Below are positions 7,655-32,216 of a DNA stretch of 38,703 nucleotides, in pieces; within the stretch, counting starts at the first letter, position 1, and every line of letters begins with the position of its first letter. The position numbers and the translations under genes are program-made. This DNA comes from an uncultured Ruminococcus sp. (lineage in GTDB: Bacteria > Bacillota > Clostridia > Oscillospirales > Ruminococcaceae), in the NCBI RefSeq assembly GCF_902762735.1, contig NZ_CACWPP010000036.1, positions 1 to 38,703 of the forward strand, read 5' to 3'. The notes under the pieces are model-generated. The model was not told where the DNA came from, did not search any database, and was given only the letters and a program-made list of their open reading frames with translations.

Positions 7655-7854
7655 TTGTCGTTCTCCTTTTTCTTTCTCTCTATATGGCAAGCCGAATGCT
7701 TGCTCCAACTTCTGCATTATATCACATGCAGATATTTCAGGTGATCGTGCTTCACAACCGCAGGACATATCCCGATATATAAAAACGGACAGTCTGCCTG
7801 AAAAAAAAATACGGCAAAGTGATGTCATGCCGTGATATATGATATGGTATCATT

Positions 7855-8130
7855 TTATCTGCGCAAATATATGCTGACAGCCGCAAAGGCTATAAATATG
7901 ACGACCGCAAAAGAAAAAACCGCCAAGACTTTATTTTTGCGCCATTCTCTGATCCCCTGCGCCATCATGGCTATACCCAGACCTATTTCTGCGACATAAT
8001 TATTATGTACTGCACCGGCTATAAACAATATGGCATAAACGATCACAAATACAGAAACAATGATCTGTACTGTCACTGAGCATTTTTCGATATTATCATA
8101 ACTCTCCCAAGCAGTAAAAACAGTTTTCAT
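7855..8130 (-). CDS. Small membrane protein of unknown function
   Basis: 91 residues with three hydrophobic stretches: VQIIVSVFVIVYAILFIAG, VAEIGLGIAMMAQGI and VLAVFSFAVVIFIAFAAVSI. A basic linker (REWRKNK) sits before the last segment. GGAGG lies 6 bases before the ATG, which supports it as real. I cannot name a family. It is upstream of the CPBP gene on the same strand and could share its transcript. Confidence 0.6.
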   Translation of the reverse strand: MKTVFTAWESYDNIEKCSVTVQIIVSVFVIVYAILFIAGAVHNNYVAEIGLGIAMMAQGIREWRKNKVLAVFSFAVVIFIAFAAVSIYLRR

Positions 8131-8301
8131 AATAACCTCCGAAAATTCCCGCTTTTCATTATATACAGTGCCATCAGACTGTCTTTCGCCGTCATCGCGT
8201 ATATGTGCGTTATATCCAATATATCCTCAGCCGTATCTCTCACTGTAATGGTATATATTGCAGATCATCATAAAAGACAGCTTTGCTGATAAATAATATA
8301 T

Positions 8302-8451
8302 ATGACTATCCCGCTGATACACCAAAATAAACTATGTTATATCGGGAATTGAATACAGTTTGAGGTTATCTTTCGGGGGAAAGATAACATCAACTCAGTT
8401 TTTCCTCATTGATAAAGGTATTTTGCAGTGGTGTGCCAAAGGGATAGTCAT
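8302..8451. mobile_element. MITE-like element, family 1 ends with a different interior
   Basis: Begins ATGACTATCCCGCTGATACA and ends GTGTGCCAAAGGGATAGTCAT, so the termini match family 1. The inside differs and shares GAAAGATAACATCAACTC and the following 30 or so bases with the element at 12097. The flanks are AT-rich with ATAATATAT on both sides. The rest of the gap from 8131 to 8658 shows nothing that I can support. Confidence 0.65.
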
Positions 8452-8658
8452 ATAATAATATATAGTGCTATCATTATATCATTAAAGGGCGGCATTGTCA
8501 AGTTCTGTAAAATCTGAGACCAAGCACCTTGTTAATGCCGCATAGCTTTTAACATATTTCTGTGTACAGCTTACGGATAAGTTTTTTCAGATGAAATATT
8601 GGTATATGCAGTTTTATAGCCTCCTGATCAATATTCAAGTCAGATACTCCCCCGTACA

Positions 8659-8672
8659 TGACAGCGTTATCA
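8659..8672. promoter_or_regulatory. LacI-type operator candidate metY-O3
   Basis: TGACAGCGTTATCA, followed by CA. It differs at two bases from the perfect palindrome TGATAACGTTATCA 79 bases downstream. The central CG is typical of LacI-family operators. Confidence 0.55.
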
Positions 8673-8737
8673 CATATCCTGCCAAACGCGGTTTTCGCGC
8701 GGCTTGCGAATATCGTCAAAACGCCGCAGATATTGGG

Positions 8738-8751
8738 TGATAACGTTATCA
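8738..8751. promoter_or_regulatory. LacI-type operator candidate metY-O2 (perfect palindrome)
   Basis: TGATAACGTTATCA is a perfect 14-base palindrome with a central CG. Near-identical sites lie upstream of mccB (12494, 12608). Its centre is 104 bases, about ten helical turns, from the next site. Confidence 0.7.
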
Positions 8752-8841
8752 CATATAGCTTAAAAAGCCCGTCTGCCTGCTTTTTCAGAGGATATTTCGG
8801 CGGCATAAGCAGTATCCCTGTGCTGTCAGCCGCGTACAGAG

Positions 8842-8855
8842 TGCAAACGTTGTCA
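8842..8855. promoter_or_regulatory. LacI-type operator candidate metY-O1
   Basis: TGCAAACGTTGTCA keeps the AACGTT core and the TG...CA ends. It lies 10 bases upstream of the metY -35 box. Confidence 0.55.
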
Positions 8856-8865
8856 CCGATTTTTA

Positions 8866-8894
8866 TTGACCTATCCAAACTTTTCGGTTAAACT
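8866..8894 (+). promoter_or_regulatory. metY promoter
   Basis: TTGACC at 8866-8871 and TAAACT at 8889-8894 with a 17-base spacer, 34 bases before the metY start. An inverted repeat TTTCGGTT (8882-8889) / AACCGAAA (8907-8914) spans the -10 region and the ribosome binding site. Confidence 0.55.
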
Positions 8895-8927
8895 GGAGTA
8901 AACTTAAACCGAAAGGAAATGATGATA

Positions 8928-10217
8928 ATGGCAGAATTGAGATTTGACACAAGAAAGATAAGAGCAGGCTACGAGCCAGCTGACAACAATCAGGCAGTAT
9001 CGCCGCCCATTTACCAGACCGCTTCCTACGATTTCAGGGACACCGAACATGCGCAGAACCTGTTCACCTACAAGGAAGCGGGCTACCTTTACACCCGCGT
9101 GGGAAACCCCACCGTGACCTATTTTGCGGAACGTGTGAAGGCTCTTGACGGCGCGGCGAATGTGGTCGCAGTAGGTTCGGGAATGGCAGCCATAACCTAT
9201 ACGCTGATGAACCTTGCATCAAAAGGCGGCACTATACTTGCCTCTCCATATGTATACGGCGGCACTATTGATGCTTTTGACAGACTGTTCCCCGAGCTCG
9301 GCATTACCGTGAAGATAACCGATGCAGTGCTTGATCCCGAAAGGCTTGAAAAAGAGCTTACCGATGATGTCAAGGCGGTGTTTCTGGAGTCGATAAGCAA
9401 TCCCAACGCATATCTGGCTGACATAGATGCTGTATCAGAGACCGCACACAGGCACGGCGTACCTGTGGTGGTGGACAACACCCTTGCTACGCCGTATCTG
9501 TACAGACCCTTTGAGCATGGTGCTGACATAGTAGTATATTCTGCGACAAAAGCGCTGACGGGTCATGGCAATATCATAGCGGGGCTTATCCTTGACAACG
9601 GTGATATGAGCCTGTACACAAAAGAGCGCTACCCGCAGTTCTACGAGCCTATCGTTATGCTCAAAGGCAAGTCCCCCGCAGATATTTTCCCTGATAATTT
9701 CTTTATTTTCAGGGCGACCCTTGTATATCTCAACCTGCTGGGCGCGGCACTTTCGCCTCAGGACGCATATCTCGGCATAATAGGGCTGGAGACCCTTTCT
9801 GAGAGAGTTGCTAAGCAGTCTGCGAACGCGGCGAAGCTGGCGGCTTACCTTGAAAGCTCCCCTGCTGTTGAATGGGTGCGTCACCCCAGCCTTGAAAGCT
9901 ACAAGTACCGCGAGCTTGCAAAGAAGCACCTGCCCCTTGGCGGCGGCGGTGTACTGAGTTTCGGCATAAAAGGCACGGCAGAGCAGGAAGCCGTTTTCCT
10001 GAACAATATCAGGCTGTTCCACTATCATGTCAATTTGGGAGATGCGCGTTCACTTATAGTTGACTCGCCCAACACCACGCACAGTGAGCTGAATGCAGAT
10101 GAGATGAAACTTGCTGATATACCCTCAAACCTGATACGCATTTCGGCAGGTCTCGAAGATGCAGATGACCTCATCGCCGACCTTGAACAGGCTTTCCTTG
10201 CAGCGGGGCTTTTATAA
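8928..10217 (+). CDS. metY: O-acetylhomoserine sulfhydrylase (aminocarboxypropyltransferase)
   Basis: 429 residues, a PLP enzyme of the Cys/Met metabolism family. It joins O-acetylhomoserine to sulfide (giving homocysteine) or to methanethiol (giving methionine). The PLP lysine is Lys208 in YSATKALTGHGN; SGMAAI, the SNPN segment and VVDNTLATPYLYRP are further landmarks. Length and insertions (KEAGYLYTRVGNPT, HVNLGDARSL) are typical of MetY rather than MetB. The third of three clustered ATGs (8928) was chosen because it gives about 10 bases after AAAGGA; 8919 and 8922 are too close. Operators and position place it with the nitrogenase-like genes, where it could capture methanethiol (inference). 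Confidence 0.92.
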   Translation: MAELRFDTRKIRAGYEPADNNQAVSPPIYQTASYDFRDTEHAQNLFTYKEAGYLYTRVGNPTVTYFAERVKALDGAANVVAVGSGMAAITYTLMNLASKGGTILASPYVYGGTIDAFDRLFPELGITVKITDAVLDPERLEKELTDDVKAVFLESISNPNAYLADIDAVSETAHRHGVPVVVDNTLATPYLYRPFEHGADIVVYSATKALTGHGNIIAGLILDNGDMSLYTKERYPQFYEPIVMLKGKSPADIFPDNFFIFRATLVYLNLLGAALSPQDAYLGIIGLETLSERVAKQSANAAKLAAYLESSPAVEWVRHPSLESYKYRELAKKHLPLGGGGVLSFGIKGTAEQEAVFLNNIRLFHYHVNLGDARSLIVDSPNTTHSELNADEMKLADIPSNLIRISAGLEDADDLIADLEQAFLAAGLL

Positions 10218-10258
10218 TTCATAATTCATAATTCATAATGCATAATTGTTGACATGGT
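10218..10258. repeat. AT-rich short direct repeats shared with the nifH-nifD spacer
   Basis: About four copies of ATAATTCAT followed by ATAATTGTTGACATG, directly after the metY stop. Almost the same string follows the nifH stop at 17068-17116. Confidence 0.6.
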
Positions 10259-10268
10259 CGAATGTTCG

Positions 10269-10826
10269 CCCTGCTCACACTTTCGGGGAACGCATTTCGC
10301 CCCGCTCACACTCGCGGAGAACGCATTTCGACCCGCGTACACTCGCGGGGAACACATTTCGACCCGCACACACTCGAAGAGAACGCATTTCGACCTGCTC
10401 ACACCTGCGGGGAACGCATTTCGACCCGCTCACACTCGCGGAGAACACATTTCGACCCGCGTACACTCGCGGGAAACGCATTTCGACCCGCTCACACCTG
10501 CGGGAAACGCATTTCGACCTGCTCACACCTGCGGGGAACACATTTCGACCCGCTCACACTCGTAGGAAACGCATTTCGCTCCGCTCACACTCGTGGAGAA
10601 CGCATTTCGACCCGCATACACCTGCGGGGAACGCATTTCGACCCGCTCACACCTGTGGGGAACGCATTTCGACCCGCTCACACCTACGGAGAACGCCTTT
10701 CGACCCGCTCACACTTGCGGGGAACGCATTTCCACCCGCGTACACTCGCGGGAAACGCATTTCGACCCGCGTACACTCGCGGGAAACACATTTTGTCCCA
10801 CTCACACTCGCGAGAAACGCATTACT
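10269..10826. repeat. Tandem repeat, 18 units of 31 bp
   Basis: Eighteen consecutive 31-base units with the consensus ACCCGCTCACACTCGCGGGG followed by AACGCATTTCG. Units differ at one to six positions and none is separated by unique sequence, so this is a minisatellite rather than a CRISPR. Most units can pair CCCGC with GCGGG across about 8 bases, so an RNA would form a row of hairpins. The period equals nearly three helical turns. All three forward frames stay open (93-base superperiod), but no ribosome binding site precedes them, so I do not call a gene. Confidence 0.92.
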
Positions 10827-10900
10827 AACATGAATGGCGGGGCGTATGCGGCTGCGTCGGCATATCACTCGCCGAATAACTAAAAATTTACATTTTATAC

Positions 10901-10929
10901 TTGACAAATGGTCTAAATTGCGGTATAAT
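10901..10929 (+). promoter_or_regulatory. Promoter of the LacI-family regulator
   Basis: TTGACA at 10901 and TATAAT at 10924 with a 17-base spacer, a consensus sigma-A promoter. No TGATAACGTTATCA-type site is seen here, so the regulator does not obviously repress itself. Confidence 0.8.
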
Positions 10930-10977
10930 CATACTATTCTAATATGTTAACTATGGTAAAACGAAAGGGTGAGCTGT

Positions 10978-12051
10978 ATGTCACTGAAAAAAATAGCACA
11001 AATGACAGGTGTATCGGTATCGACAGTGGGCAGGATACTCAGCGACCCCAACCATAAATGCGCCAATGAAGAAGTCAGGAAGAAAGTGACAGATGCGGCA
11101 AGGGAGATAAACTATATCCCCAACGCCAGTGCAAGGGCGCTCAAAACAGGCGCGAAAAGCGAAGAGAAGATATACCGCATAGATATACTGCTCACAAGGG
11201 CTTCTCATGAAATGAGCGACCCTTTTTATGATGAACTGCTGATGCTGCTTGAAAAAGAGCTTCGCAGCAGCGGCTGTATAGTGGGTAATGTATGGCATAA
11301 GGCTGAATTCTCGGACGAAAAGCTGAGCAGGACAGACAGGCTCGGGGGGCTTGCAGATGAGCTTTATCCTGCCGATATGCCGCATTCGGACGGGCTTATC
11401 ATAATCGGCAAGGTGACGCTCAAAGCGCTTAAACTGCTGAAAGCAAAAGAGAAAAATCTGGTCTCGATAAACCGCAATTCCACCAACTGCGAGACTGATG
11501 AGGTGCTGTGTGACGGAAGCAGGATAGCCCGCACTGCCGTAAACTATCTGACAAAGCTGGGTCACACAAAAATAGGCTATGTGGGCGACTGCCACAACGA
11601 ATCGCGCTTTACAGGCTATCAGACTGCCATGATGAACAACCGCCTGACCCCCGATATAGATCACATTTTCGATACCCTGCCCAACGAGGAGGGCGGTATT
11701 GCCGCGATGGAGTATTTCGCTTCACTTGATGACCCGCCTACGGGCATTTACTGTGCCAACGATATTCTCGCGGTGGGTCTGCTGAGTGCTATGGGCAGGC
11801 GCAGGTCACGGGGATATATGCCGTCGGTAATTTCAAGCGATGACATTGAGACAGCCCAGTACACCAAGCCCATGCTGACCACCATATCTCTTCCCAAAAC
11901 AGAAATGGTACACTTTGCACTTATGCTTCTGCTTGACCGCATCAGGGGCGGTCACAGGACGGTCTCCAGGATAGAGGTCGAAGGCACGCTGGTGATACGC
12001 GAAAGCTGCCGACAGGCGGGTGTGCTGAACGAGCCTGAATATTATATATGA
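10978..12051 (+). CDS. LacI-family transcriptional regulator
   Basis: 357 residues. Residues 1-60 form the LacI helix-turn-helix (MSLKKIAQMTGVSVSTVGRI) and hinge (YIPNASARALKTG). The rest is a periplasmic-binding-like sensor domain (DGLIIIGK, HTKIGYVGD, PTGIYCANDILAVG, EVEGTLVIRESC). The ATG at 10978 follows AAGGGTGAG at a good distance; a GTG 9 bases upstream is less likely. It has its own promoter and terminator and lies between metY and mccB, both of which carry LacI-like palindromes upstream. It therefore probably controls these sulfur genes. The ligand cannot be read from the sequence; a sulfur metabolite or the reductase substrate is possible. Confidence 0.9.
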   Translation: MSLKKIAQMTGVSVSTVGRILSDPNHKCANEEVRKKVTDAAREINYIPNASARALKTGAKSEEKIYRIDILLTRASHEMSDPFYDELLMLLEKELRSSGCIVGNVWHKAEFSDEKLSRTDRLGGLADELYPADMPHSDGLIIIGKVTLKALKLLKAKEKNLVSINRNSTNCETDEVLCDGSRIARTAVNYLTKLGHTKIGYVGDCHNESRFTGYQTAMMNNRLTPDIDHIFDTLPNEEGGIAAMEYFASLDDPPTGIYCANDILAVGLLSAMGRRRSRGYMPSVISSDDIETAQYTKPMLTTISLPKTEMVHFALMLLLDRIRGGHRTVSRIEVEGTLVIRESCRQAGVLNEPEYYI

Positions 12052-12054
12052 TAC

Positions 12055-12096
12055 AACTGCCGATGAGTACAGCGTGTAACCGTCGGCAGTTTTTTT
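12055..12096 (+). terminator. Terminator of the LacI-family gene
   Basis: AACTGCCGA / TCGGCAGTT stem followed by a run of T. The start of the next mobile element abuts the T run. Confidence 0.88.
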
Positions 12097-12340
12097 ATGT
12101 GATAATACCGCTGACACACCATGCCAAACAGCCTTTCAGCGTGCATTATAGTTATCGGTTTTCTTTCCCGCGCCGCAGTCGGGGAAAGATAACATCAACT
12201 CGGTTTTTCCTCATTGATAAAGGTATTTAGCACACCAACTAAAAATGCGGTAAACAAAAGGATAATTGAGCGCCATACGCCAAGAACCTTAACTTCTGTA
12301 TAGCCGCTGTTTTTGTGGTGTGTCAGCAGGATAACCACAA
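12097..12340. mobile_element. Composite MITE: fused halves of two elements
   Basis: 12097-12228 matches the left part and inner segment of the 8302 element (GAAAGATAACATCAACTC onward). 12229-12340 is an inverted family 1 element, ending in GTGTGTCAGCAGGATAACCAC. The joint falls at GTATTT / AGCACACCAAC, where the right end of the first element is missing. Confidence 0.65.
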
Positions 12341-12405
12341 AACTTTTACCCGACTATATCAGCCATACACATCAAGATCGGGAGTATGCTCAAAAGTGCA
12401 GAGCG

Positions 12406-12419
12406 CGGCAACGTTATCA
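12406..12419. promoter_or_regulatory. LacI-type operator candidate mccB-O3
   Basis: CGGCAACGTTATCA: the right half and core match the palindrome, the left half is weaker. 88 bases upstream of the next site. Confidence 0.45.
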
Positions 12420-12493
12420 GGCAAAAGGGCGCGGCGGGTGCAGTTGAGCGCACCGACTTGTCTGCATCTGCGCACAGACAGGCGTTTTCAGCG

Positions 12494-12507
12494 TGATAAC
12501 GTTGTCA
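12494..12507. promoter_or_regulatory. LacI-type operator candidate mccB-O2
   Basis: TGATAACGTTGTCA, one base off the perfect palindrome seen at 8738. Confidence 0.65.
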
Positions 12508-12607
12508 TTCAAAGGGCGCTGTCAACAGATCGTTCAAAAGAATTTACCATATCAAACTTATATTTCAGCCAAAAGTACTGCTGTTGACCTGACTTACGTC
12601 CGCCTGA

Positions 12608-12621
12608 TGACAACGTTATCA
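12608..12621. promoter_or_regulatory. LacI-type operator candidate mccB-O1
   Basis: TGACAACGTTATCA, one base off the perfect palindrome. It lies 10 bases upstream of the mccB -35 box, the same distance as the nearest site at metY. Confidence 0.68.
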
Positions 12622-12631
12622 CACATTCTCA

Positions 12632-12660
12632 TTGACGAGAGCGGTTTTATGGTGTATTAT
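12632..12660 (+). promoter_or_regulatory. mccB operon promoter
   Basis: TTGACG at 12632 and TATTAT at 12655 with a 17-base spacer, 46 bases before the mccB start. Confidence 0.65.
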
Positions 12661-12706
12661 GAATACATACCAATCAAATAGGAAATATATGAAAGGAATG
12701 AATAAG

Positions 12707-13864
12707 ATGAGTTACAAGAATATCAATACAGCCCTGATACACGGCGGAATATCAATAGATGAGCGCACAGGCGCGGTAAATGTGCCTATCTACCAGACCT
12801 CTACTTTCAAGCAGGACGGTCTTGGCAAGATGAGGGGATATGAATATTCACGCACAGGCAACCCCACAAGAGAAGCGCTGGAAGCCCTTATCGCCGAGCT
12901 GGAAGGCGGCTATGCAGGTTTTGCTTTCGCAAGCGGACTTGCCGCTGAAACAGCAGTACTCAGCCTTCTGCACACAGGTGATCGGGTGCTTATATCCTCA
13001 AATGTTTACGGCGGTACTTTCAGGCTGTTAAATCAGGTGTTCGACCATTTCGGCATAAACTACACCATATCCGATACCGAAGACCCCTCCGCTTTCGAGA
13101 AAGACATAACCGATGATGTTAAAGCAGTGCTGATAGAAAGCCCTGCAAATCCGCTGATGACAGTGACGGATATAAAAGCGGTTGCTGATATAGCCCACAG
13201 ACACGGTCTGCTGGTGATAGTGGACAACACTTTTATGACCCCATATCTGCAAAGACCACTCGAACTGGGCGCTGATATAGTCGTACACAGCGCCACAAAA
13301 TATCTCGGCGGACACAGCGATGTGGTGGCAGGTCTGGCAGTAGTCAAAACAAAGGAACTGGCTGAGAAGCTGGCTTTCCTGCAAAACTCAACGGGCGGGG
13401 TGCTGCCGCCGTTTGACAGCTTCCTGCTGATACGCGGCATAAAGACACTGGGCGTAAGACTTGACAGACACGTTGAGAACGCTCTTGCGGCGGCTGAATA
13501 TCTGTCTGCACATGAAGCAGTCAAGAGCGTGCATTATCCGGGACTTCCCACCGACAAGGGCTATGAAGTCAACAAGCGTCAGGCTAAGAACGGCGGCGTG
13601 ATGATAAGTTTTGAGCTGACTGAGGGTCACGACATAGAAAAGTTCTTTGAGAGCCTTGAACTGATAACGCTGGCGGAAAGTCTGGGCGGCGTTGAATCGC
13701 TGGTATGCCATCCGTCATCTATGACACACGCTTCCATACCCGAAGAGATACGCAAAAAAGTCGGCATAACCGACGGTCTGATAAGACTTTCCATAGGCAT
13801 AGAGGACATTGATGACATACTTGCAGACCTTGACAATGCCATCAGGAAAAGTGAGGTAAAATAA
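12707..13864 (+). CDS. mccB: Cystathionine gamma-lyase / gamma-synthase (MccB-like)
   Basis: 385 residues, a PLP enzyme of the Cys/Met metabolism family. The PLP lysine is Lys198 in HSATKYLGGHSD; YEYSRTGNPTR and TLAESLGGVESLVCHP are the usual landmarks. By recall it resembles Bacillus subtilis MccB (YrhB), which splits cystathionine to cysteine; MetB (cystathionine synthesis) is the alternative. The mccA-type gene starting 1 base after its stop favours reverse transsulfuration. The ATG at 12707 has AAAGGA 9 bases before it; the frame is open upstream, but that stretch contains the promoter. It is the first gene of mccB-mccA-nifX-nifB. Confidence 0.88.
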   Translation: MSYKNINTALIHGGISIDERTGAVNVPIYQTSTFKQDGLGKMRGYEYSRTGNPTREALEALIAELEGGYAGFAFASGLAAETAVLSLLHTGDRVLISSNVYGGTFRLLNQVFDHFGINYTISDTEDPSAFEKDITDDVKAVLIESPANPLMTVTDIKAVADIAHRHGLLVIVDNTFMTPYLQRPLELGADIVVHSATKYLGGHSDVVAGLAVVKTKELAEKLAFLQNSTGGVLPPFDSFLLIRGIKTLGVRLDRHVENALAAAEYLSAHEAVKSVHYPGLPTDKGYEVNKRQAKNGGVMISFELTEGHDIEKFFESLELITLAESLGGVESLVCHPSSMTHASIPEEIRKKVGITDGLIRLSIGIEDIDDILADLDNAIRKSEVK

Positions 13865-13865
13865 T

Positions 13866-14771
13866 ATGTTATACGAAAACATGCGGGAGCTGATAGGGCA
13901 CACCCCGCTGGTGAGGCTGAATAATATGGGGGTCTCCCCCGAAGTAAAAATATATGCGAAACTGGAAATGTACAACCCCTCAGGCAGTGTGAAAGACCGT
14001 GTAGGCGAATATATGGTCAGGGCGGCTGAGAAAGAGGGCAAACTGAAAAAGGGCGGCACTATAATAGAAGCTACCGCAGGCAACACGGGGCTTGGCATAG
14101 CGTTCGCCGCACTGGGCAGAGGTTACAGAGTGATATTCACAGTCCCCACAAAATTCTCGGCAGAAAAGCAGGCGCTCATGCGTGCGCTGGGTGCTGAGGT
14201 CATAAACACTCCGCGCGAAGAGGGAATGCTGGGAGCGGTAAAAAAGGCTGAGGAGCTGAAAAGTCAGATACAGGGCTCAATATCGCTGGAGCAGTTCAAA
14301 AACCCGCAAAATCCCCTCGCCCACTATGAAACTACGGGCAAAGAGATATATGATGACCTTGACGGCAGGCTCGACTATCTTGTGGCAGGCGCAGGAAGCG
14401 GCGGCACATATTCGGGTATCGTCAGGTATCTGAAAGAACATAACGATAATATAAAAGGTGTCCTCGCTGACCCCGAAGGCTCGACCATTGGCGGCGGCGA
14501 ACACTTCGACTACAACATCGAGGGCATCGGCAACGACTTTATACCCGAAACGATGGATATATCCCTCGTAGACAAGGTGATAAAGATAAACGATAAAGAA
14601 GCGTTCAGCACAGTGCACGCCCTTGCAAAAAACGAGGGCATAATAGCAGGTTCGTCAACTGGGGCGGCAATGGCGGCGGCATTGAAGCTGTCAAAGACTA
14701 TCGACAGCGGAACGATAGTCGTGGTATTCCCTGACAGAGGCGACCGCTATTTCAGCACAGGGCTGTTCTGA
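13866..14771 (+). CDS. mccA: O-acetylserine-dependent cystathionine beta-synthase (MccA-like)
   Basis: 301 residues, a fold-II PLP enzyme. The PLP lysine is Lys43 in PSGSVKDR. The loop reads IIEATAGNTG (as in MccA/YrhA) rather than EPTSGNTG of CysK. AGAGSGGT, EGIGNDFIPE and VVFPDRGDRY follow. MccA condenses homocysteine with O-acetylserine (or serine) to cystathionine; plain cysteine synthase is the alternative. It starts 1 base after the mccB stop, with GAGG inside the end of mccB, so the two are coupled. Homocysteine could come from methionine made by MetY. Confidence 0.88.
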   Translation: MLYENMRELIGHTPLVRLNNMGVSPEVKIYAKLEMYNPSGSVKDRVGEYMVRAAEKEGKLKKGGTIIEATAGNTGLGIAFAALGRGYRVIFTVPTKFSAEKQALMRALGAEVINTPREEGMLGAVKKAEELKSQIQGSISLEQFKNPQNPLAHYETTGKEIYDDLDGRLDYLVAGAGSGGTYSGIVRYLKEHNDNIKGVLADPEGSTIGGGEHFDYNIEGIGNDFIPETMDISLVDKVIKINDKEAFSTVHALAKNEGIIAGSSTGAAMAAALKLSKTIDSGTIVVVFPDRGDRYFSTGLF

Positions 14772-14787
14772 TAAACGGAGAAAAAAT

Positions 14788-15159
14788 ATGATATTCAAAA
14801 TAGCGATAGCAAGCAGCGACGGCGTTCGTACAGACAGGCATTTCGGGCAGGCAGATGAGTTTTACATATACAGCCTTGATACCGAAAAGGAGGACTGCGA
14901 ACTGCTGGGCAAGCGCGAAGTCTGTCCCGCCTGTCACGGCGGCGAACATCAGGTCGGAAGTTTTGACGATGTACTGGCGGTACTGACCGATGTATCTGCA
15001 ATAGTGGCACAGCGTGTGGGCTATGGCGCTGAGAGTTACCTGAAAAGTCACGGCAAAGCAGTATACCAGATACCGCTGAACATCGAAGAAGCGCTGTGCA
15101 TACTGCTTGAGGAAAAACGATGGGAGGCAGACAAATGGCAGTTACATACGAAGAACTGA
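14788..15159 (+). CDS. NifX/NifB-C-terminal-like metallocluster-binding protein
   Basis: 123 residues of the dinitrogenase iron-molybdenum cofactor family (NifX, NafY, NifB C-terminus). Landmarks: IAIASSDGVRTDRHFGQADEF and a late VAQRVGYGAESYL. It also has CPACHGGEH, a Cys/His segment in the middle. Such proteins bind or carry NifB-co-type clusters. GGAG lies 7 bases before the ATG. Its end overlaps the start of the NifB gene by 25 bases, so they are coupled. Since the NifB here lacks the fused NifX domain seen in many bacteria, this gene probably supplies it as a separate protein. Confidence 0.85.
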   Translation: MIFKIAIASSDGVRTDRHFGQADEFYIYSLDTEKEDCELLGKREVCPACHGGEHQVGSFDDVLAVLTDVSAIVAQRVGYGAESYLKSHGKAVYQIPLNIEEALCILLEEKRWEADKWQLHTKN

Positions 15160-16007
15160 CGACAAAGCACCCATGCTTCGCGAGAGGTGAACACAGCAAC
15201 AACGGGCGTATACATCTTCCTGTCAGCCCCACATGCAACATAGAATGCCGCTTCTGCGAGAGAAGCATAAACAGCTATGAGAACCGTCCGGGTGTGGCGG
15301 CAACGGTCATACGCCCTGAGGAAGCTGCAAAAGCTGTGGAAAAGGCACTGGAGTTATGCCCCGAAATAAAAGTGGCAGGCATAGCGGGTCCGGGAGATAC
15401 TCTGGCGAGCAATTGTGCGCTGCGCACATTCGGGCTGATAAAAGAAAAGTTCCCGCAGCTTGTAAAGTGCATGAGTACAAACGGTCTGCTGCTGGCTGAA
15501 AAGGCACAGGAGGTCATAGATGCGGGCGTTGACTCGCTGACAGTGACGGTAAATGCGGTAGACCCCGAGATAGAGGCAAAGCTGAACGCGGGCATAAGCT
15601 GGCACGGCAAACACTACGAGGGTGTGGAAGCCGCAAAGATACTGATAGAACAGCAGATAAAAGGCATAAAGCTGGTCAGTGATGCGGGCATGACCGTCAA
15701 GGTGAACACGGTGCTTGTACCCGGTATAAATGTGGATCATATCGGTGAGATAGCCCGCACAGTAGCAGAAGCGGGCGCGAGCATATACAACATAATCCCA
15801 CTGATACCTCAGCATCAGCTGAAAGACTGTCCGCCGCCTACCTGCGAGGAGATAGAGGGCGCGATACGTGCGGCACAGGAGTATATTGATGTGTTCCGAC
15901 ACTGTCACCGCTGCCGCGCCGATGCGGTGGGCATACCTGGCGGTAAAGACTTCGGTGATGAAGTCTACATGCAGAGACTTTCCGCGAAAGACACTTTTTC
16001 GCACGGA

Positions 16008-16010
<3 letters not shown>
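15135..16010 (+). CDS. nifB: NifB-like radical SAM cofactor maturase
   Basis: 291 residues. The radical SAM cysteines are Cys34, Cys38 and Cys41 (CNIECRFC), preceded by the NifB-type HPCFARGEH segment and followed by ENRPGV, AGPGDTLAS and, near the C-terminus, HCHRCRADAVG. NifB builds the 8Fe-9S-C core (NifB-co) from two 4Fe-4S units and S-adenosylmethionine. This is a short NifB without a C-terminal NifX domain. GGGAGG is 8 bases before the ATG at 15135; the earlier ATG at 15120 has no good site. It is the last gene of mccB-mccA-nifX-nifB. NifB without NifE/NifN fits a MarB-type role rather than full nitrogenase. Confidence 0.92.
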
Positions 16011-17064
<1,054 letters not shown>

Positions 17065-17374
17065 TCCATAATTCACAATTACAATTCATAATTCATAATT
17101 CATAATTGTTGACATGCACGAAAGCTCGGTGCATTTGACGCAGATCTTTGCAAACAAGGATGAGCAGGGCGGGTGGCGTTCGCGACCGTGTCGGCGTTTT
17201 TCCCGCCGTTTTGAACGGCACAAAGCTATGTAAGCACAAAAACAATTCCAAAAAAATCATGCCAAAGAGCGACCCGCGCAGCATCAGCAAAGCTGATGTT
17301 TGGGGTATGGGGCTGTGACCCCATTTAAAACAGCATGTGGGCAAGTCAGCCCCCATTTAAGATAGGAGTTTAAA
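17065..17374. other. nifH-nifD spacer with AT repeats and hairpins
   Basis: A 310-base gap without a gene. 17068-17116 repeats the ATAATTCAT block found after metY. Then follow three hairpins: CATCAGC/GCTGATG (17283-17299), GGGG/CCCC (17309-17323) and GGGC-AAGTCA-GCCC (17339-17356), the last shared with the nifH leader. AGGAG lies 18 bases after it. No internal promoter is obvious, so nifH and nifD may still be co-transcribed. Confidence 0.6.
17339..17356 (+). promoter_or_regulatory. Leader hairpin before the nifD-like gene
   Basis: GGGCAAGTCAGCCCCCAT, 18 bases identical to the nifH leader hairpin, followed by GATAGGAGT. Ends 18 bases before the ATG. Confidence 0.6.
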
Positions 17375-18844
17375 ATGAGTAAAGTAAATCTTAATATACC
17401 TGAGGTCGAAATACGTGAGATACGCCTTAATTCGATCACGGGTTTTCAGGGAACTGCTAAGGAACTGGTAGATGCCTGTTCCGCATGCGGAGGAAAAATG
17501 AAAGACAAGAACAGGTCTTTCAGTCAGTGTCTTGGCTGCGGAACTTCAAACGCTGCCTGCACACTTACACTTATCCAGGACGCGGCGATAATCTCACACG
17601 GTCCTGTGGGCTGTTCGACCTGCCTGCATGAATTTGCATTCACTTACAGGGTGAATGCTTATCTCAGACAGCTGGAACACCCGACACAGAGAAAGATATT
17701 CTCTACCAATCTGGAGGAAAAGGACACCATCTACGGCGGCGCGAAAAAGCTGGAAGCCGCCATCAGAGAGGTGCATAAAAGGGCAAAGCCAAAGGCGATA
17801 TTCGTCATAACCACCTGCGCGGCAGGCATCATCGGTGATGATGTGGAAAGTGTCACAAATGCGGCACAGAAAGAACTGGGCATACCTGTTGTGGCAGTAT
17901 TCTGCGAGGGATTCAGGTCTAAGATGTGGACTTCGGGCTTTGATGCAGGCTATCACGGCATCGCAAGGAAGATAATCAAGCCTGCAAGACAGAAGAGGAA
18001 TATCATCAATGTCATAAACTTCTGGGGCAGTGATATTTTCAGGGAGTGGTTCGCTGAATTCGGCTACGAACCAAACTATATCACACCATTTGCAACGGTG
18101 GACAGCCTCAGCTATTCCAGCGAGGCGGCGCTGACCATACAGGCATGTTCGACACTGGGCAGTTATCTCGGTGCGGCGCTGGAACAGGGCTTCGGTGTGC
18201 CTGAGATACGCAATTCGCCCCCTTACGGCATAGCACAGACCGACCGCTGGTTCAGGGAACTGGGTCAGATATTGGGCAAGGAAAAGGAAGTCGAAGAATT
18301 CCTCGCACGCAAGAAAGCCGAGTATATGCCGAAAATAGAGGCTCTGCGCGAAAAGCTGAAAGGCAAGACCGCTTATGTTACAGCGGGCGCTTCTCACGGT
18401 CATTCACTGCTGGCACTGCTGAAAGAACTGGGCATGGAAACTCAGGGCGCGGCAATATTCCACCACGACCCCAAATACGACAACGAGGACGAACGTGCCG
18501 ACACTCTCAGCCATACAGTTGCAGACTACGGCGATGTGCCGAATTACAATGTCTGCAACAAGCAGGAGTTCGAGCTGGTCAATGTACTCAACCGCATACG
18601 CCCCGACATATTGCTTGCGCGGCACGGCGGCATGACCCTCTGGGGCGCTAAGCTGGGCATACCCTCACTGCTGGTGGGCGATGAACATTTCGGCATGGGC
18701 TATGAGGGTCTTGTGGCTTACGGCGAACGCATACTTGAGACCATCGATAACGACGAGTTTGTAAAGAACCTTGCAAAGCATTCTGTCAACCCCTATACAA
18801 AATGGTGGCTTGAACAGGAGCCGTACACATTTTTAGGAAAGTAA
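17375..18844 (+). CDS. Nitrogenase component 1 alpha-like subunit (NifD/MarD-like)
   Basis: 489 residues. P-cluster ligand candidates are Cys55 (CLGCGTSN), Cys80 (HGPVGC) and Cys148 (TTCAAGIIGDD). The cofactor ligands align as Cys258 (IQACSTL, NifD Cys275) and His438 (DEHFGMGYEG, NifD His442), so a NifB-co-derived cluster can probably be held. The segment before the FeMo-co pocket reads GFDAGYHGI instead of GVSQSLGHHI, so NifD Gln191 is not kept while a His is. These changes point away from nitrogenase. Its partner follows 13 bases downstream. By family and sulfur neighbours it is most like methylthio-alkane reductase alpha (inference). Confidence 0.85.
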   Translation: MSKVNLNIPEVEIREIRLNSITGFQGTAKELVDACSACGGKMKDKNRSFSQCLGCGTSNAACTLTLIQDAAIISHGPVGCSTCLHEFAFTYRVNAYLRQLEHPTQRKIFSTNLEEKDTIYGGAKKLEAAIREVHKRAKPKAIFVITTCAAGIIGDDVESVTNAAQKELGIPVVAVFCEGFRSKMWTSGFDAGYHGIARKIIKPARQKRNIINVINFWGSDIFREWFAEFGYEPNYITPFATVDSLSYSSEAALTIQACSTLGSYLGAALEQGFGVPEIRNSPPYGIAQTDRWFRELGQILGKEKEVEEFLARKKAEYMPKIEALREKLKGKTAYVTAGASHGHSLLALLKELGMETQGAAIFHHDPKYDNEDERADTLSHTVADYGDVPNYNVCNKQEFELVNVLNRIRPDILLARHGGMTLWGAKLGIPSLLVGDEHFGMGYEGLVAYGERILETIDNDEFVKNLAKHSVNPYTKWWLEQEPYTFLGK

Positions 18845-18857
18845 AGGAGTAATATAT

Positions 18858-20198
18858 ATGGCAGGACTTATAGAACAAGAGCGCTACACCTGCGCGATAG
18901 GTGCTTTGCAGACGGTAGTTGCTATCCCCCGCGCTGTGCCGATACTTCATTCGGGACCGGGCTGCGGAGTTATGATAAAGGGCTTTTTTGAGAGAGCCTC
19001 AGGCTATGCGGGCGGCGAAACTGCGCCCTGCACCAATTTCAGCGAAAAAGAGGTCGTTTTCGGCGGCACTGACAGGCTGAGGAATATCATAAAGAACACC
19101 TACAAGGTGCTGGACACCGATCTTCAGGTGGTGGTAACAGGCTGTACCGCAGGCATCGTGGGCGATGACGTGGCAAGTGTAACAGATGAATTCCTCTGGG
19201 AAGAGGACAGACCCATCGTGCATGTGGAAACTTCGGGCTTCAAATCGAACAACTATGTATCGCATTCGGCGGTGGTAAATGCGATAATCGACCAGTATGT
19301 GAGCCGCTTTGAAGAGGAAAATCCCGCAAGGAGCGAGAAGAACTTAGTCAATGTATTTGCATCTATCCCCTATCAGGATCAGTTCTGGAAAGGCAACCTG
19401 AAAGAATACAAGCGCCTGCTGGAAGGTCTGGGATTGAAGGTCAATATCCTCTTCGGACCGCATTCGGGCGGCGTTAAGGAGTGGCAGACCATACCTAAGG
19501 CGAACTTCAACGTGTTCATATCTCCCTGGTACGGTGAGCCGATAGTAAAAAATCTGGAGAGAAAGTACGGTCAGCCGTACTATCAGTTCGGCTATCTGCC
19601 CATCGGTGCGAATGAGACTACAAAGTTCCTGAACGGCGTGCTGGAATACGCCATAGAACAGGGCGCAGGCATCGACGAGATAAAAGCCCGCGCATTCATA
19701 GCTGAAGAAGAAAGAGCCTACTATGAAGAACTTGACAATCTGGCGACTTTCCTGCTGGAATTCAGATACGGTCTGCCGAGTTATGCGCATGTACTGCATG
19801 ATGCGGGATATGTGGTCGGTCTGACAAAGTTTTTGCTGCACGAAACAGGCGTGATACCCAAAGAGCAGTTCATAGTGGATAATGTTCCCGCCAAGTATCA
19901 GGAGAAGATAGCTGAGGAGATACGCTCGGTATCGGACAAGCGCGAGATACCCGTATACTTCGACCCCGATGCGGGCGCTATGCAGGACGTTATCAGGGGA
20001 CTTGACAACAAGGGCAGAGCGCTCATACTGGGAAGCGGCTGGGATAAGGAACTTGCCGCAGAGATAGGCGGAGATTTCCTCTCCATCGCCTGCCCCACAC
20101 CTTACCGCATCGTGCTGACTACGAACTATGTGGGCTACACAGGCGGTCTGCGGGTGATAGAGGACATCTACAACACCGCCCTTGCGACCTACAAGTAA
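18858..20198 (+). CDS. Nitrogenase component 1 beta-like subunit (NifK/MarK-like)
   Basis: 446 residues. P-cluster ligand candidates are Cys12 (YTCAIGA), Cys36 (HSGPGCG) and Cys96 (TGCTAGIVGDD), spaced 24 and 60, close to NifK Cys70, Cys95 and Cys153. The N-terminal extension of true NifK (about 58 residues) is absent, as in nitrogenase-like enzymes and NifN. It should pair with the NifD-like protein just upstream to form a heterotetramer. NifN is the alternative, but no second D/K pair exists here. GGAG precedes the ATG by 8 bases. A MITE follows 12 bases after its stop. Confidence 0.85.
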   Translation: MAGLIEQERYTCAIGALQTVVAIPRAVPILHSGPGCGVMIKGFFERASGYAGGETAPCTNFSEKEVVFGGTDRLRNIIKNTYKVLDTDLQVVVTGCTAGIVGDDVASVTDEFLWEEDRPIVHVETSGFKSNNYVSHSAVVNAIIDQYVSRFEEENPARSEKNLVNVFASIPYQDQFWKGNLKEYKRLLEGLGLKVNILFGPHSGGVKEWQTIPKANFNVFISPWYGEPIVKNLERKYGQPYYQFGYLPIGANETTKFLNGVLEYAIEQGAGIDEIKARAFIAEEERAYYEELDNLATFLLEFRYGLPSYAHVLHDAGYVVGLTKFLLHETGVIPKEQFIVDNVPAKYQEKIAEEIRSVSDKREIPVYFDPDAGAMQDVIRGLDNKGRALILGSGWDKELAAEIGGDFLSIACPTPYRIVLTTNYVGYTGGLRVIEDIYNTALATYK

Positions 20199-20210
20199 CA
20201 CCATATTTGA

Positions 20211-20336
20211 ATGTGGTTATCCCGCTGACACACCACAAAAACAGCGGCTATACAGAACTTAAGGTTCTTGGCGTGTGGTGCTCAATTATCCTTTTGTTTA
20301 CTGCATTTTTAGTTGGTGTGCTAAAGGGATAGTCAT
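20211..20336. mobile_element. MITE-like element, family 1, inserted between nifK-like and nifX-like genes
   Basis: A 126-bp element running from ATGTGGTTATCCC to GGGATAGTCAT, flanked by perfect 8-bp duplications ATATTTGA (20203-20210 and 20337-20344). The ribosome binding site of the next gene (AAAGGA) begins at the right duplication. Confidence 0.88.
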
Positions 20337-20357
20337 ATATTTGAAAGGACTGATATA

Positions 20358-20690
20358 ATGGCGAAAGTCGCTGTTGCAACATCTGACGGCTTCACTGTCA
20401 ACGAACATTTCGGGCATGCACAGTTCTTCCGCATTTACAAGCTGAATGCTGACGGTTACGAATATGAGGACATACGCGATGCGGTGGCTGTCTGTCAGCA
20501 GAAACTCGGGCATGATGAGAGCCGCTTCGACAAGATCATCGAACTGCTCTCGGACTGCGATGCAGTGCTTGTCAACCGCATCGGCGAGGGCGCGGCGGCG
20601 TACCTCATCGGCAAAGGCGTGCGGGTATTTGAAGTCAGCGGGAGCATTGACGGTGTGCTGACAAAGCTCATCTCAGACAATATGATATGA
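20358..20690 (+). CDS. NifX-like metallocluster-binding protein (second copy)
   Basis: 110 residues of the NifX/NafY/NifB-C family: VAVATSDGFTVNEHFGHAQFF at the start and AVLVNRIGEGAAAYL in the second half. It resembles the gene at 14788 (EHFGHAQFF against RHFGQADEF), but lacks the CPACHGGEH segment. The likely role is as a carrier of, or chaperone for, the cofactor or component 1. AAAGGA lies about 11 bases before the ATG. It was probably the last gene of the nifHDK-like operon before the MITE entered the gap. A terminator follows. Confidence 0.85.
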   Translation: MAKVAVATSDGFTVNEHFGHAQFFRIYKLNADGYEYEDIRDAVAVCQQKLGHDESRFDKIIELLSDCDAVLVNRIGEGAAAYLIGKGVRVFEVSGSIDGVLTKLISDNMI

Positions 20691-20697
20691 CAGCATA

Positions 20698-20731
20698 AGT
20701 CCGTAAAGCAAGCACGCTTTACGGACTTTTC
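20698..20731 (+). terminator. Terminator of the nif-like operon
   Basis: Perfect 12-base stem AGTCCGTAAAGC / GCTTTACGGACT followed by TTTT. Confidence 0.9.
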
Positions 20732-20743
20732 CATACTTATAAC

Positions 20744-20937
20744 TCCCATTTTTGATGTGTATTGCTTATGATACAAAATGGCTGAATACACAACCAAATT
20801 GGGATGTGATTATCCCGCTGACACACCACAAAAACAGCGGCTATACAGAACTTTAGGTTCTTGGCGTTGGGCGCTCAATTATCCTTTTGTTCACCGCATT
20901 TTTAGTTGGTGTGCTAAAGGGATAGTCATAAATTGGG
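20744..20937. mobile_element. Family 2 element disrupted by a nested family 1 element
   Basis: A family 2 element without its inner hairpin (TCCCATTTTTGATGTG ... CACAACCAAATTGGG) is flanked by ATACTTATAA at 20733-20742 and 20938-20947. Its right end holds a complete family 1 element (next entry), giving the order of the two insertions. Confidence 0.8.
20804..20929. mobile_element. MITE-like element, family 1 (nested copy)
   Basis: Runs from ATGTGATTATCCC to GGGATAGTCAT, flanked by the 8-bp duplication AAATTGGG at 20796-20803 and 20930-20937, which is the end of the family 2 host element. Confidence 0.88.
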
Positions 20938-20945
20938 ATACTTAT

Positions 20946-20994
20946 AAAAAGCAGGACGGCAGTGCCTTCACAGCAGGTGCATCGTCCTGCTTTT
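20946..20994. terminator. Bidirectional terminator-like hairpin
   Basis: AAAAGCAGGACG / CGTCCTGCTTTT with a loop of about 24 bases. T runs on both strands. Confidence 0.6.
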
Positions 20995-21085
20995 AACATA
21001 ACTCAAACATGACCGAAACTTTACGCAAACAATCCCGCTGTATCATTTAGTCACATCAAAGATAAACGATACGGAGGTAATCAAC

Positions 21086-22096
21086 ATGAAAACATTGTAT
21101 TTAGTAACAGGCGCGGCAGGATTTCTGGGCGGCACGGTATGCCGTCAGCTTATTGAACAGGGGCGCAGTGTGCGGGCTTTCGTTCTGCCCAACGACCCCG
21201 CCATGAAGTTCATACCCGAAGAGGCTGAGATAGTCACAGGCGACCTCTGCGATAAAAATTCGCTGGAGAGATTTTTCACCGTCCCCGAAGATACCGAAAC
21301 AGTAGTGTTCCATATAGCAAGCATAGTCACGGTCGATCCGTCTTACAGTCAGAAAGTCATAGATGTCAACGTGGGCGGCACGCAGAATATCATAGACCTC
21401 TGCCTTGCCCACAAAGAATGCCGCAGGCTGATATATTGCAGCAGCACAGGCGCTATCCCCGAAACTGCCGCAGGCACACCGATACGCGAAGTTTCGCAGT
21501 TCGACACCGAAAAGGTGGTGGGCTGTTACAGTCAGTCAAAAGCTATGGCGACCCAGCTGGTGCTTGATGCGGTGCGCGAAAAGGGGCTTGATGCCTGCAT
21601 CGTCCACCCCAGCGGCATAATGGGACCCGAAGACTACGCCGTTGGCGAGACCACAGGCACACTGCTGAAAATAATCGGCGGCGAGATGCCCATGGGCATT
21701 GACGGCAGTTTCAACCTCTGTGACGTGCGCGACCTTGCCAACGGCACTATCCTCGCGGCAGACAAGGGGCGCAAGGGCGAATGCTACATTCTCGGCAACG
21801 ATACGGTGTCTTTCCGCGACTTCACAAAGCTGGTCTGCGAAGAGAGCAGCTGCAAGCCCGTGAAATTCTTCCTGCCGCTGAGTATCGCCGCATTCATCGC
21901 GGGCATAATGGAGAAAAGCGCAAGAAAAAAAGGCAAAAAGCCCCTTATGACCGGCTTCTCGGTATACAATCTTGCAAGGAACAACACATTCGATTCGGGC
22001 AAGGCAAAGCGCGAACTGGGCTACACCACCCGTTCCTACCGCGAAACACTGCGAGATGAGATAGCGTGGCTGAGAAAGTCGGGCAAGATAGCGTGA
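21086..22096 (+). CDS. Extended short-chain dehydrogenase (NAD-dependent epimerase/dehydratase, dihydroflavonol-reductase-like)
   Basis: 336 residues with a Rossmann fold: TGAAGFLGG nucleotide motif at the N-terminus, GDLCD acidic region, and the catalytic YSQSK (YxxxK) with an upstream CSSTGA serine. The C-terminal half has the HPSGIMGP and DVRDLANG segments of the extended family. The substrate cannot be told from the sequence. A hydrophobic stretch (LPLSIAAFIAGIM) could touch the membrane. GGAGG lies 7 bases before the ATG. It is followed after 9 bases by another dehydrogenase, so the two probably act in one pathway. Confidence 0.85.
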   Translation: MKTLYLVTGAAGFLGGTVCRQLIEQGRSVRAFVLPNDPAMKFIPEEAEIVTGDLCDKNSLERFFTVPEDTETVVFHIASIVTVDPSYSQKVIDVNVGGTQNIIDLCLAHKECRRLIYCSSTGAIPETAAGTPIREVSQFDTEKVVGCYSQSKAMATQLVLDAVREKGLDACIVHPSGIMGPEDYAVGETTGTLLKIIGGEMPMGIDGSFNLCDVRDLANGTILAADKGRKGECYILGNDTVSFRDFTKLVCEESSCKPVKFFLPLSIAAFIAGIMEKSARKKGKKPLMTGFSVYNLARNNTFDSGKAKRELGYTTRSYRETLRDEIAWLRKSGKIA

Positions 22097-32208: not shown

Positions 32209-32216
32209 ACTGCACC

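Follow-up and report, generated by a model that had tools for sequence, protein, structure and literature searches.

A nitrogenase-like locus among sulfur amino-acid genes of Ruminococcus, sister to methylthio-alkane reductase and probably a C-S bond reductase

What does a nitrogenase-like enzyme do when its genes lie among those for methionine and cysteine synthesis? The question is raised by a contig of an uncultured Ruminococcus sp. (NZ_CACWPP010000036.1, assembly GCF_902762735.1; genome searched, 4.06 Mb in 242 contigs), whose entire 38,703 bases were analyzed and are called the window here. Open reading frame (ORF) calls and profile searches identified a real and conserved locus with all genes on the plus strand, in the order metY, LacI-family regulator, mccB, mccA, nifX-like, nifB, nifH, D, K, and nifX-like (Table 1), D and K being the subunits of the nitrogenase-like pair. 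A preliminary description, made from the letters alone, had named metY, mccB, mccA, the two nifX-like genes, nifB, nifH, D, and K, all of which the ORFs and profiles bear out, and had read them as a methylthio-alkane reductase (Mar)-type system in a Firmicute. We conclude that the locus probably encodes a nitrogenase-like C-S bond reductase assimilating sulfur from organic sulfur compounds and that, judged by its phylogeny, the enzyme is a sister of Mar within Group IV-A and not simply Mar.

Both subunits are nearer to MarDK than to nitrogenase, in the search of solved structures and, for D, in the tree. Mar refers here to MarBHDK of Rhodospirillum rubrum (PDB 9fmg and 9d9u, Group IV-C). Among sequences of solved structures, D matched MarD best (9fmg, E 5.7e-132; 9d9u, 1.3e-131), followed by a nitrogenase alpha chain at 8.2e-39, and K matched MarK best (4.5e-117), followed by NifK at 7e-16. 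The D protein is 41% identical to R. rubrum MarD and 100% identical to its counterpart in Ruminococcus albus 8, which points to R. albus, a cellulose degrader of the rumen, or a close relative as the source. NCBIfam returned sub-threshold matches alone, the best match of D being NifE and that of K being BchB. Across the whole genome, PF00148 matched only the window pair and, more weakly, four frames on contig 39; all six frames fall short of the NCBIfam cut-offs for NifD, NifK, NifE, and NifN, and no NifEN pair was found in the genome, as the preliminary description had said of nifE and nifN.

Relatives came from a genome scan (the best 80 of 307 examined), and 55 loci of the window's clade, clade A, were kept after near-identical copies had been removed and loci from other searches added (L147_11673 and L148_18963 excluded). 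In a D tree of 61 rows (IQ-TREE; support given as bootstrap/Shimodaira-Hasegawa-like approximate likelihood ratio test), clade A including the window comprises 38 rows (98/91), R. rubrum MarD and its Bacillota orthologues (Mar sensu stricto) form a separate clade of 7 rows (100/100), and clade C holds 4 rows (98/90); all three stand apart from NifD, and nine rows fall in smaller subclades. The window D lies outside the clade of characterized MarD and within its sister clade. This tree omits 21 long or redundant rows, NifE rows included, of an 82-row tree that keeps all rows and recovers the same clades. In the K tree the core of clade A is supported at 100, with the basal clade A rows L110 and L112 outside it at a weak fork (57); the K row L106_17499 pairs with a D of the "other" clades, not of Mar sensu stricto. 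Members of clade A are spread over five phyla.

The active site was compared, in MarD numbering, between 56 clade A rows (the window and 55 others) and 10 Mar sensu stricto rows. Cys66, Cys91, Cys158, Trp195, Phe199, and Cys270 are invariant in both groups, and His375, Arg428, and His429 are invariant in 56/56 clade A rows and in the 9/9 Mar sensu stricto rows reaching them (one row is short). The P-cluster cysteines of the window are C55, C80, and C148 in D, kept in 56/56 clade A rows, and C12, C36, and C96 in K, whose columns are Cys in 110/110 K rows from several clades; C258 of D corresponds to MarD Cys270, and R416-H417 to the Loop I residues Arg428-His429 of Mar. The six P-cluster cysteines and Cys258 had been recognized correctly in the preliminary description, but His438, its proposed cofactor ligand, has to be given up, the column being less than 90% conserved in a 23-row alignment and Gln in L029. 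By homology to the Mar structure, the predicted cofactor His ligand is Loop I His417, which follows Arg416. The reported absence of NifD Gln191 was upheld: that column holds Trp185, and the column of NifD His195 holds Phe189, both as in MarD.

Two columns set clade A against Mar sensu stricto. The His194 column is His in 10/10 Mar sensu stricto rows and hydrophobic in 56/56 clade A rows (Ile in 34, Val in 15, Met in 6, and Leu in 1); the window has Met184-Trp185 where Mar has His194-Trp195, so the His194 beside Trp195 (S2B site) is absent. The column is likewise hydrophobic in 10/10 rows of other subclades and in 6/7 clade C rows, the seventh having Tyr, which suggests that Mar sensu stricto gained His194. 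The Tyr353 column is Tyr in 9/9 Mar sensu stricto rows, His in 56/56 clade A rows, and Arg in 7/7 clade C rows, with 4 Phe, 3 Tyr, and 1 each of Leu, His, and Gln in 10 other rows; the aligned residue is Arg in 3/3 NifD rows, which we take to be Arg359 of Azotobacter vinelandii, contacting the cofactor. The Gln74 column is Gln in 10/10 Mar sensu stricto and 18/56 clade A rows. In a further 31 near-identical D rows, kept out of the 56-row set, Met fills the His194 column throughout; row L061 among them has Pro at the His429 column. Clade A and Mar sensu stricto offer a natural comparison of how few residues may tune one cluster.

The surroundings of D carry the sulfur signal. Within 10 kb in the 55 clade A loci we identified MetY in 30, MccA/CysK in 18, and MccB in 16, along with NifX in 34, NifB in 33, and NifH in 28, and at least 1 of MetY, MccA/CysK, and MccB was present in 36/55 loci, contig ends included. 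Among well-flanked loci, those whose D start is preceded by at least 5 kb and followed by at least 6.5 kb, 26/31 had at least 1 of these sulfur genes versus 0/20 canonical nif loci of the phylum, taken as control with two stretches of just 8 and 12 kb (Fisher p 7e-10, indicative since the rows are related). A sulfur gene lies at most 200 bp from a nif-like gene on the same strand in 28/55 clade A loci. PII/NifI-like genes were identified in 20/20 nif loci versus 0/55 clade A loci, and binding proteins of the NlpA type (20/55) and NMT1 type (15/55) near clade A versus 0/20 in nif loci; no importer was seen at the window's own locus. Both mccB and mccA adjoin D in 28 of 32 near-identical loci, the remaining 4 being short contigs, and the placement of the mcc genes beside D is more than chance. 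In the window, the gaps of 1 bp (mccB-mccA), 16 bp (mccA-nifX), and -25 bp (nifX-nifB) sustain the operon that had been proposed for these four genes, and D and K are 13 bp apart. The gaps between nifB and nifH (196 bp) and between nifH and D (310 bp) are wider, and a single transcript across the whole locus is therefore not established.

We searched the genome for other routes of sulfur metabolism. Profile searches gave no match to sulfite reductase in the window's genome and identified HTS (MetA), CysE, and the nucleosidase of 5'-methylthioadenosine and S-adenosylhomocysteine. D was found in 22 of 29 genomes of the genus, and sulfite reductase was present in 1/22 genomes with a clade A D versus 4/7 without (p 0.0067), a contrast that ignores kinship, includes several incomplete genomes, and counts as D-bearing 3 genomes with D fragments or paralogues alone. 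Such scarcity of sulfite reductase alongside D fits a role replacing inorganic sulfur assimilation. A search for PAPS reductase returned one weak partial match in the genome, which is not used as an argument, and weak partial matches to the methionine-synthase B12 domain (28.3 bits here, cut-off 25) are not interpreted. No MtnA-family match was found in the window's genome, and 13/29 genomes of the genus have one; 2-methylthioethanol derived from 5'-methylthioadenosine was accordingly set aside as the substrate.

From sequence we infer the cluster type, the C-S cleavage, the substrate, and the product of the window enzyme as follows. NifB would make a carbide-containing precursor cluster, which the NifX-like proteins would carry and which, there being no NifEN, would be inserted unmodified into D as [Fe8S9C], with Cys258 and Loop I His417 as its ligands; the P-cluster would lie where D and K meet. 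Using ATP, the NifH-type Fe protein would deliver electrons to the P-cluster and from there to [Fe8S9C], where an organosulfur substrate, probably a rumen thioether, would be reductively cleaved at its C-S bond and the sulfur released as a thiol, either methanethiol or sulfide. MetY-type enzymes accept methanethiol or sulfide. MetY could join the thiol to O-acetylhomoserine, and MccA/MccB could pass sulfur on to cysteine, with MccA possibly serving as cystathionine beta-synthase or cysteine synthase. We favor a sulfur role because MarDK is the nearest relative by a wide margin, the ligands are kept, the neighbors are sulfur genes, PII genes are absent from the clade A loci, and no sulfite reductase match was found.

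Several observations weigh against this role. In 5/31 well-flanked loci the 10 kb searched hold no sulfur amino-acid gene; most of these five are of Synergistaceae type or Lachnospiraceae type or stand alone, and the Synergistaceae loci have an NlpA importer and no metY or mcc gene. With His194 absent and Tyr353 replaced, the substrate need not be a methylthio-alkane, and the stated limits of the sulfite reductase contrast also count here. The Fe protein of the window belongs to the true NifH lineage, and members of Group IV-A are credited in print with N2 fixation (PMC9147875, PMC9391474).

N2 fixation is the main rival: a Group IV-A nitrogenase of NfaDK/NflDK1 type would fix N2 with a NifB-derived, NifEN-independent cluster, and the sulfur genes would serve cluster synthesis or be incidental. 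The preliminary description overlooked that clade A corresponds to Group IV-A/NfaDK/NflDK1, treated in print as containing functional nitrogenases. It had proposed a phylogeny of D and K as a check, and the pair proved to lie outside true nitrogenase, but inside a published clade with an inferred function in heliobacteria and a physiological claim in Endomicrobium. Among heliobacterial NflDK1-5, as presented in passages of PMC9147875, NflDK5 groups with MarDK, and NflDK1, which is predicted to fix N2, with NfaDK of Endomicrobium proavitum; the same passages report 15N2 incorporation in E. proavitum, which has no other nif-like genes, and acetylene reduction in H. fasciatum without canonical nifDK. 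Passages of PMC9391474 state that Group IV-A includes a functional nitrogenase, and those of PMC11257099 say so of Group IV in Endomicrobium.

The link to these published pairs runs through two genomes. In H. mobile, the D linked to a second NifH is 82% identical to MarD, carries the SKHW motif, and corresponds to NflDK5; the clade A D (L096, 65% identical to the window D) is next and a clade C D lies beyond, an order and strand arrangement matching the accessions for NflDK5, 1, and 4 in PMC9147875. The genome G110, which is probably H. fasciatum by its gene content as described for that species, carries four pairs close to a contig end and a true Mar close to the end of a different contig; a single NifH above cut-off adjoins its clade A pair, and its matches include no canonical NifD. 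Clade A corresponds to NflDK1/Group IV-A because D/K order, strand, and linked NifH match in H. mobile and G110; that it is shared with E. proavitum NfaDK would follow from the tree published in PMC9147875.

The Fe protein favors N2 fixation at first sight, being of NifH type, 73-79% identical to NifH from 19 canonical nif loci, and passing the NCBI curated nifH cut-off. A tree of the Fe proteins divides the H rows of clade A or Mar loci in two: 18, the window and one Mar sensu stricto locus among them, group with true NifH, and 12, those of the probable H. fasciatum and of Paenibacillus among them, make up a lineage of their own with about 50% identity. The placement suggests an apparent reductase swap, with the window's Fe protein in the true NifH lineage and Fe proteins from another lineage at roughly a dozen other clade A loci. 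Since clade A Fe proteins are found among true NifH, NifH alone cannot separate this system from nitrogenase. The D subunit, however, has Trp and Phe in the columns of NifD Gln191 and His195, as does Mar, which does not reduce N2; the genome is without a NifEN pair, the clade A loci have a sulfur context in place of PII genes, and about 10 bp separate the end of metY from the clade A D that follows in H. mobile and the probable H. fasciatum. We consider it unlikely that the locus serves N2 fixation.

An ordinary methylthio-alkane reductase, acting on the substrates of R. rubrum Mar with its residue changes neutral, would account for the shared ligands, for Trp195, Phe199, His375, and Arg428, and for the association with NifB and MetY. 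The separate clade and the fixed changes at His194 and Tyr353 speak against it, and without an MtnA-family match the R. rubrum route from 5'-methylthioadenosine to 2-methylthioethanol is not evident in this genome. Further, clade A D and Mar sensu stricto D occur together in nine genomes, namely G005, G023, and G024 of the window's genus, Ruminococcus sp. UBA7013, Pectinatus haikarae, G233, G110, H. mobile, and C. algoriphilum (in which the Mar sensu stricto frame is cut by the locus end), with both D kinds inside one locus in UBA7013, Pectinatus, G233, and C. algoriphilum. The window's genome has the clade A kind alone, the PF00148 genome search giving no Mar sensu stricto D. The separate retention of both kinds argues for different substrates or conditions, and we doubt that the window enzyme is an ordinary Mar. 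What stands of the preliminary description is a nitrogenase-like C-S enzyme tied to methionine and cysteine synthesis, supported by the active site and by the context across phyla; the Mar label was too specific for a D in a sister clade with two differing active-site columns, in a genus where some genomes hold a true Mar orthologue as well.

An isethionate-reductase (Isr)-like enzyme freeing sulfite from a sulfonate is very improbable: NMT1-type binding proteins, a superfamily also used for sulfonates, occur at some clade A loci, but IsrD keeps 1 of 3 P-cluster Cys and neither Cys275 nor the cofactor His, and IsrB is not NifB-like, according to passages of PMC11423573, whereas the window has all ligands and NifB, and a sulfite product would need a sulfite reductase, for which the genome gave no match.

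C-S bond reduction, the role preferred here for the window, may extend to the whole group. That all Group IV-A "nitrogenases" are anaerobic organosulfur reductases, sisters of Mar with their own active site and a different substrate, feeding methionine and cysteine synthesis, is a tentative proposal to which we give slightly less than even weight. The published N2-fixing role of Group IV-A is put in doubt, not disproved. If the proposal held for all of Group IV-A, the diazotrophy credited to Endomicrobium and Heliophilum would have been wrongly assigned or reflect a side activity, and surveys of rumen and gut that rely on NifH would be counting sulfur scavengers as diazotrophs. One rumen survey counted nitrogenases by NifH in 23% of 501 genomes (PMC6776011), and some of these counts may be this enzyme. 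If the enzyme cleaves C-S bonds, an organosulfur enzyme with a nitrogenase-type cluster would be common in rumen Ruminococcus and could release methanethiol, sulfide, or small hydrocarbons there. The choice between N2 fixation and C-S cleavage in Group IV-A is thereby made testable.

Table 1. Coordinates of the genes of the nitrogenase-like locus in the window, with the evidence for each
Feature	Coordinates	Strand	Evidence
metY, O-acetylhomoserine sulfhydrylase	8919..10217 (alternative start ATG 8928)	+	NCBIfam OAH/OAS sulfhydrylase 452.7 bits, cut-off 495.1
LacI-family regulator	10969..12051	+	Present at the same spot in most near-identical loci
mccB, cystathionine gamma-lyase type	12707..13864	+	NCBIfam PRK07671 550 bits, cut-off 594
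mccA, cysteine synthase / O-acetylserine-dependent cystathionine beta-synthase type	13866..14771	+	Above cysKM cut-off
nifX-like cluster carrier 1	14788..15159	+	PF02579 54.9 bits
nifB	15135..16010 (ATG 15135)	+	TIGR01290 267.8 bits, cut-off 343.65, model positions 7-294 of 441
nifH-type Fe protein (reductase)	16207..17064	+	TIGR01287 459.7 bits, above cut-off 394.35
D subunit, clade A (Group IV-A) nitrogenase-like predicted catalytic protein	17375..18844	+	Profiles, solved relatives, tree, active-site columns
K subunit	18858..20198	+	Profiles, solved relatives, cysteine columns, K tree
nifX-like cluster carrier 2	20358..20690	+	PF02579 75 bits

The best solved-structure relative of MetY is an O-acetyl-L-homoserine sulfhydrylase (1.2e-116). 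The mccB start follows the sequence reading, a longer frame beginning at 12632, and solved relatives of its product include 7d7o, a bifunctional cystathionine gamma-lyase/homocysteine desulfhydrase; those of MccA are best represented by 5xw3 (O-acetylserine lyase) and 5b1h (cystathionine beta-synthase). NifB is without a C-terminal NifX domain, and its CxxxCxxC radical-SAM motif is visible in the sequence. The Rfam scan of the window gave no match at gathering level and 2 sub-threshold matches to unrelated families in 7800-21200, and no regulatory RNA is claimed; 18 promoter-like sites versus 10.5 expected were found in the promoter/terminator scan, a result not used as evidence. Between metY and the LacI-family gene (window 10265-10823), a 31-base unit is repeated in tandem 18 times, and the resulting array is open in several frames. 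At 31099-33830, a ZnuA-ZinT fusion protein adjoins a CobW-family GTPase, likely a zinc-uptake set unrelated to the nitrogenase-like locus.

Additional nitrogenase-like genes were identified in this and other genomes. Contig 39 of the window's genome harbors a second nitrogenase-like cluster (L007 5155-17167) with a HydE radical SAM protein (568 bits, cut-off 254.6), two NifH-like proteins under the nifH cut-off, and its four PF00148 proteins far under any family cut-off, with HypF and HypD adjoining. G005 and G023 have an additional clade C pair, which comes with a cysteine synthase and a NifX-like gene of its own, the clade C pairs being located at L032 4539-12248 and L035 8936-13178; at L032 an ATP-binding cassette importer with an NMT1-type binding protein, seen in G005, and a flavin-reductase-like protein lie alongside. 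Clade C D keeps the Loop I His and not the preceding Arg, and has Arg in the NifD-Arg359 column. The Bacillota genome G424 (L145, L146, and L147) shows a large expansion, with at least 6 Mar-like D/K pairs that belong to several subclades; a single locus holds three of these pairs.

The open literature searched yielded no study of what this clade does in Ruminococcus. According to passages of PMC12552129, Mar contains an [Fe8S9C] cluster and does not reduce N2, and Arg428-His429 may be its hallmark. The window shares with it the P-cluster Cys, Cys270, Arg428-His429, Trp195, Phe199, His375, a NifB-type maturase, and the link to O-acetylhomoserine sulfhydrylase. It differs in its clade, in the clade A replacements of His194 by Met, Ile, Val, or Leu and of Tyr353 by His, and in having mccA/mccB in an operon and a Fe protein of the NifH lineage. 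With NflDK1/NfaDK the window shares, by way of the H. mobile D, the clade, and nifB, nifH, and nifX lie beside; the NflDK1 D also has metY adjoining. Those pairs are published as predicted or claimed nitrogenases, whereas the window is read here as a sulfur enzyme, and the Fe proteins of H. mobile and of the H. fasciatum-like genome are of a MarH-like lineage, unlike that of the window. The sulfur link of Group IV-A was partly anticipated by a preprint (PMC10418091), which in the passages available reports MarHDK-like genes of Group IV-A in the vicinity of type I mlp gene clusters, accompanied by MetY and CysK, and proposes a methyl-sulfur role. The window has in common with those genes the Group IV-A membership and the sulfur-gene neighbors MetY and CysK, but no corrinoid methyltransferase gene was seen at the window locus, and Ruminococcus is absent from those passages. 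Finally, IsrBHDK of Rhodobacter capsulatus resembles the window system as a nitrogenase-like sulfur assimilation system with proposed reductive C-S cleavage, whereas the window possesses all three D Cys, Cys258, and NifB.

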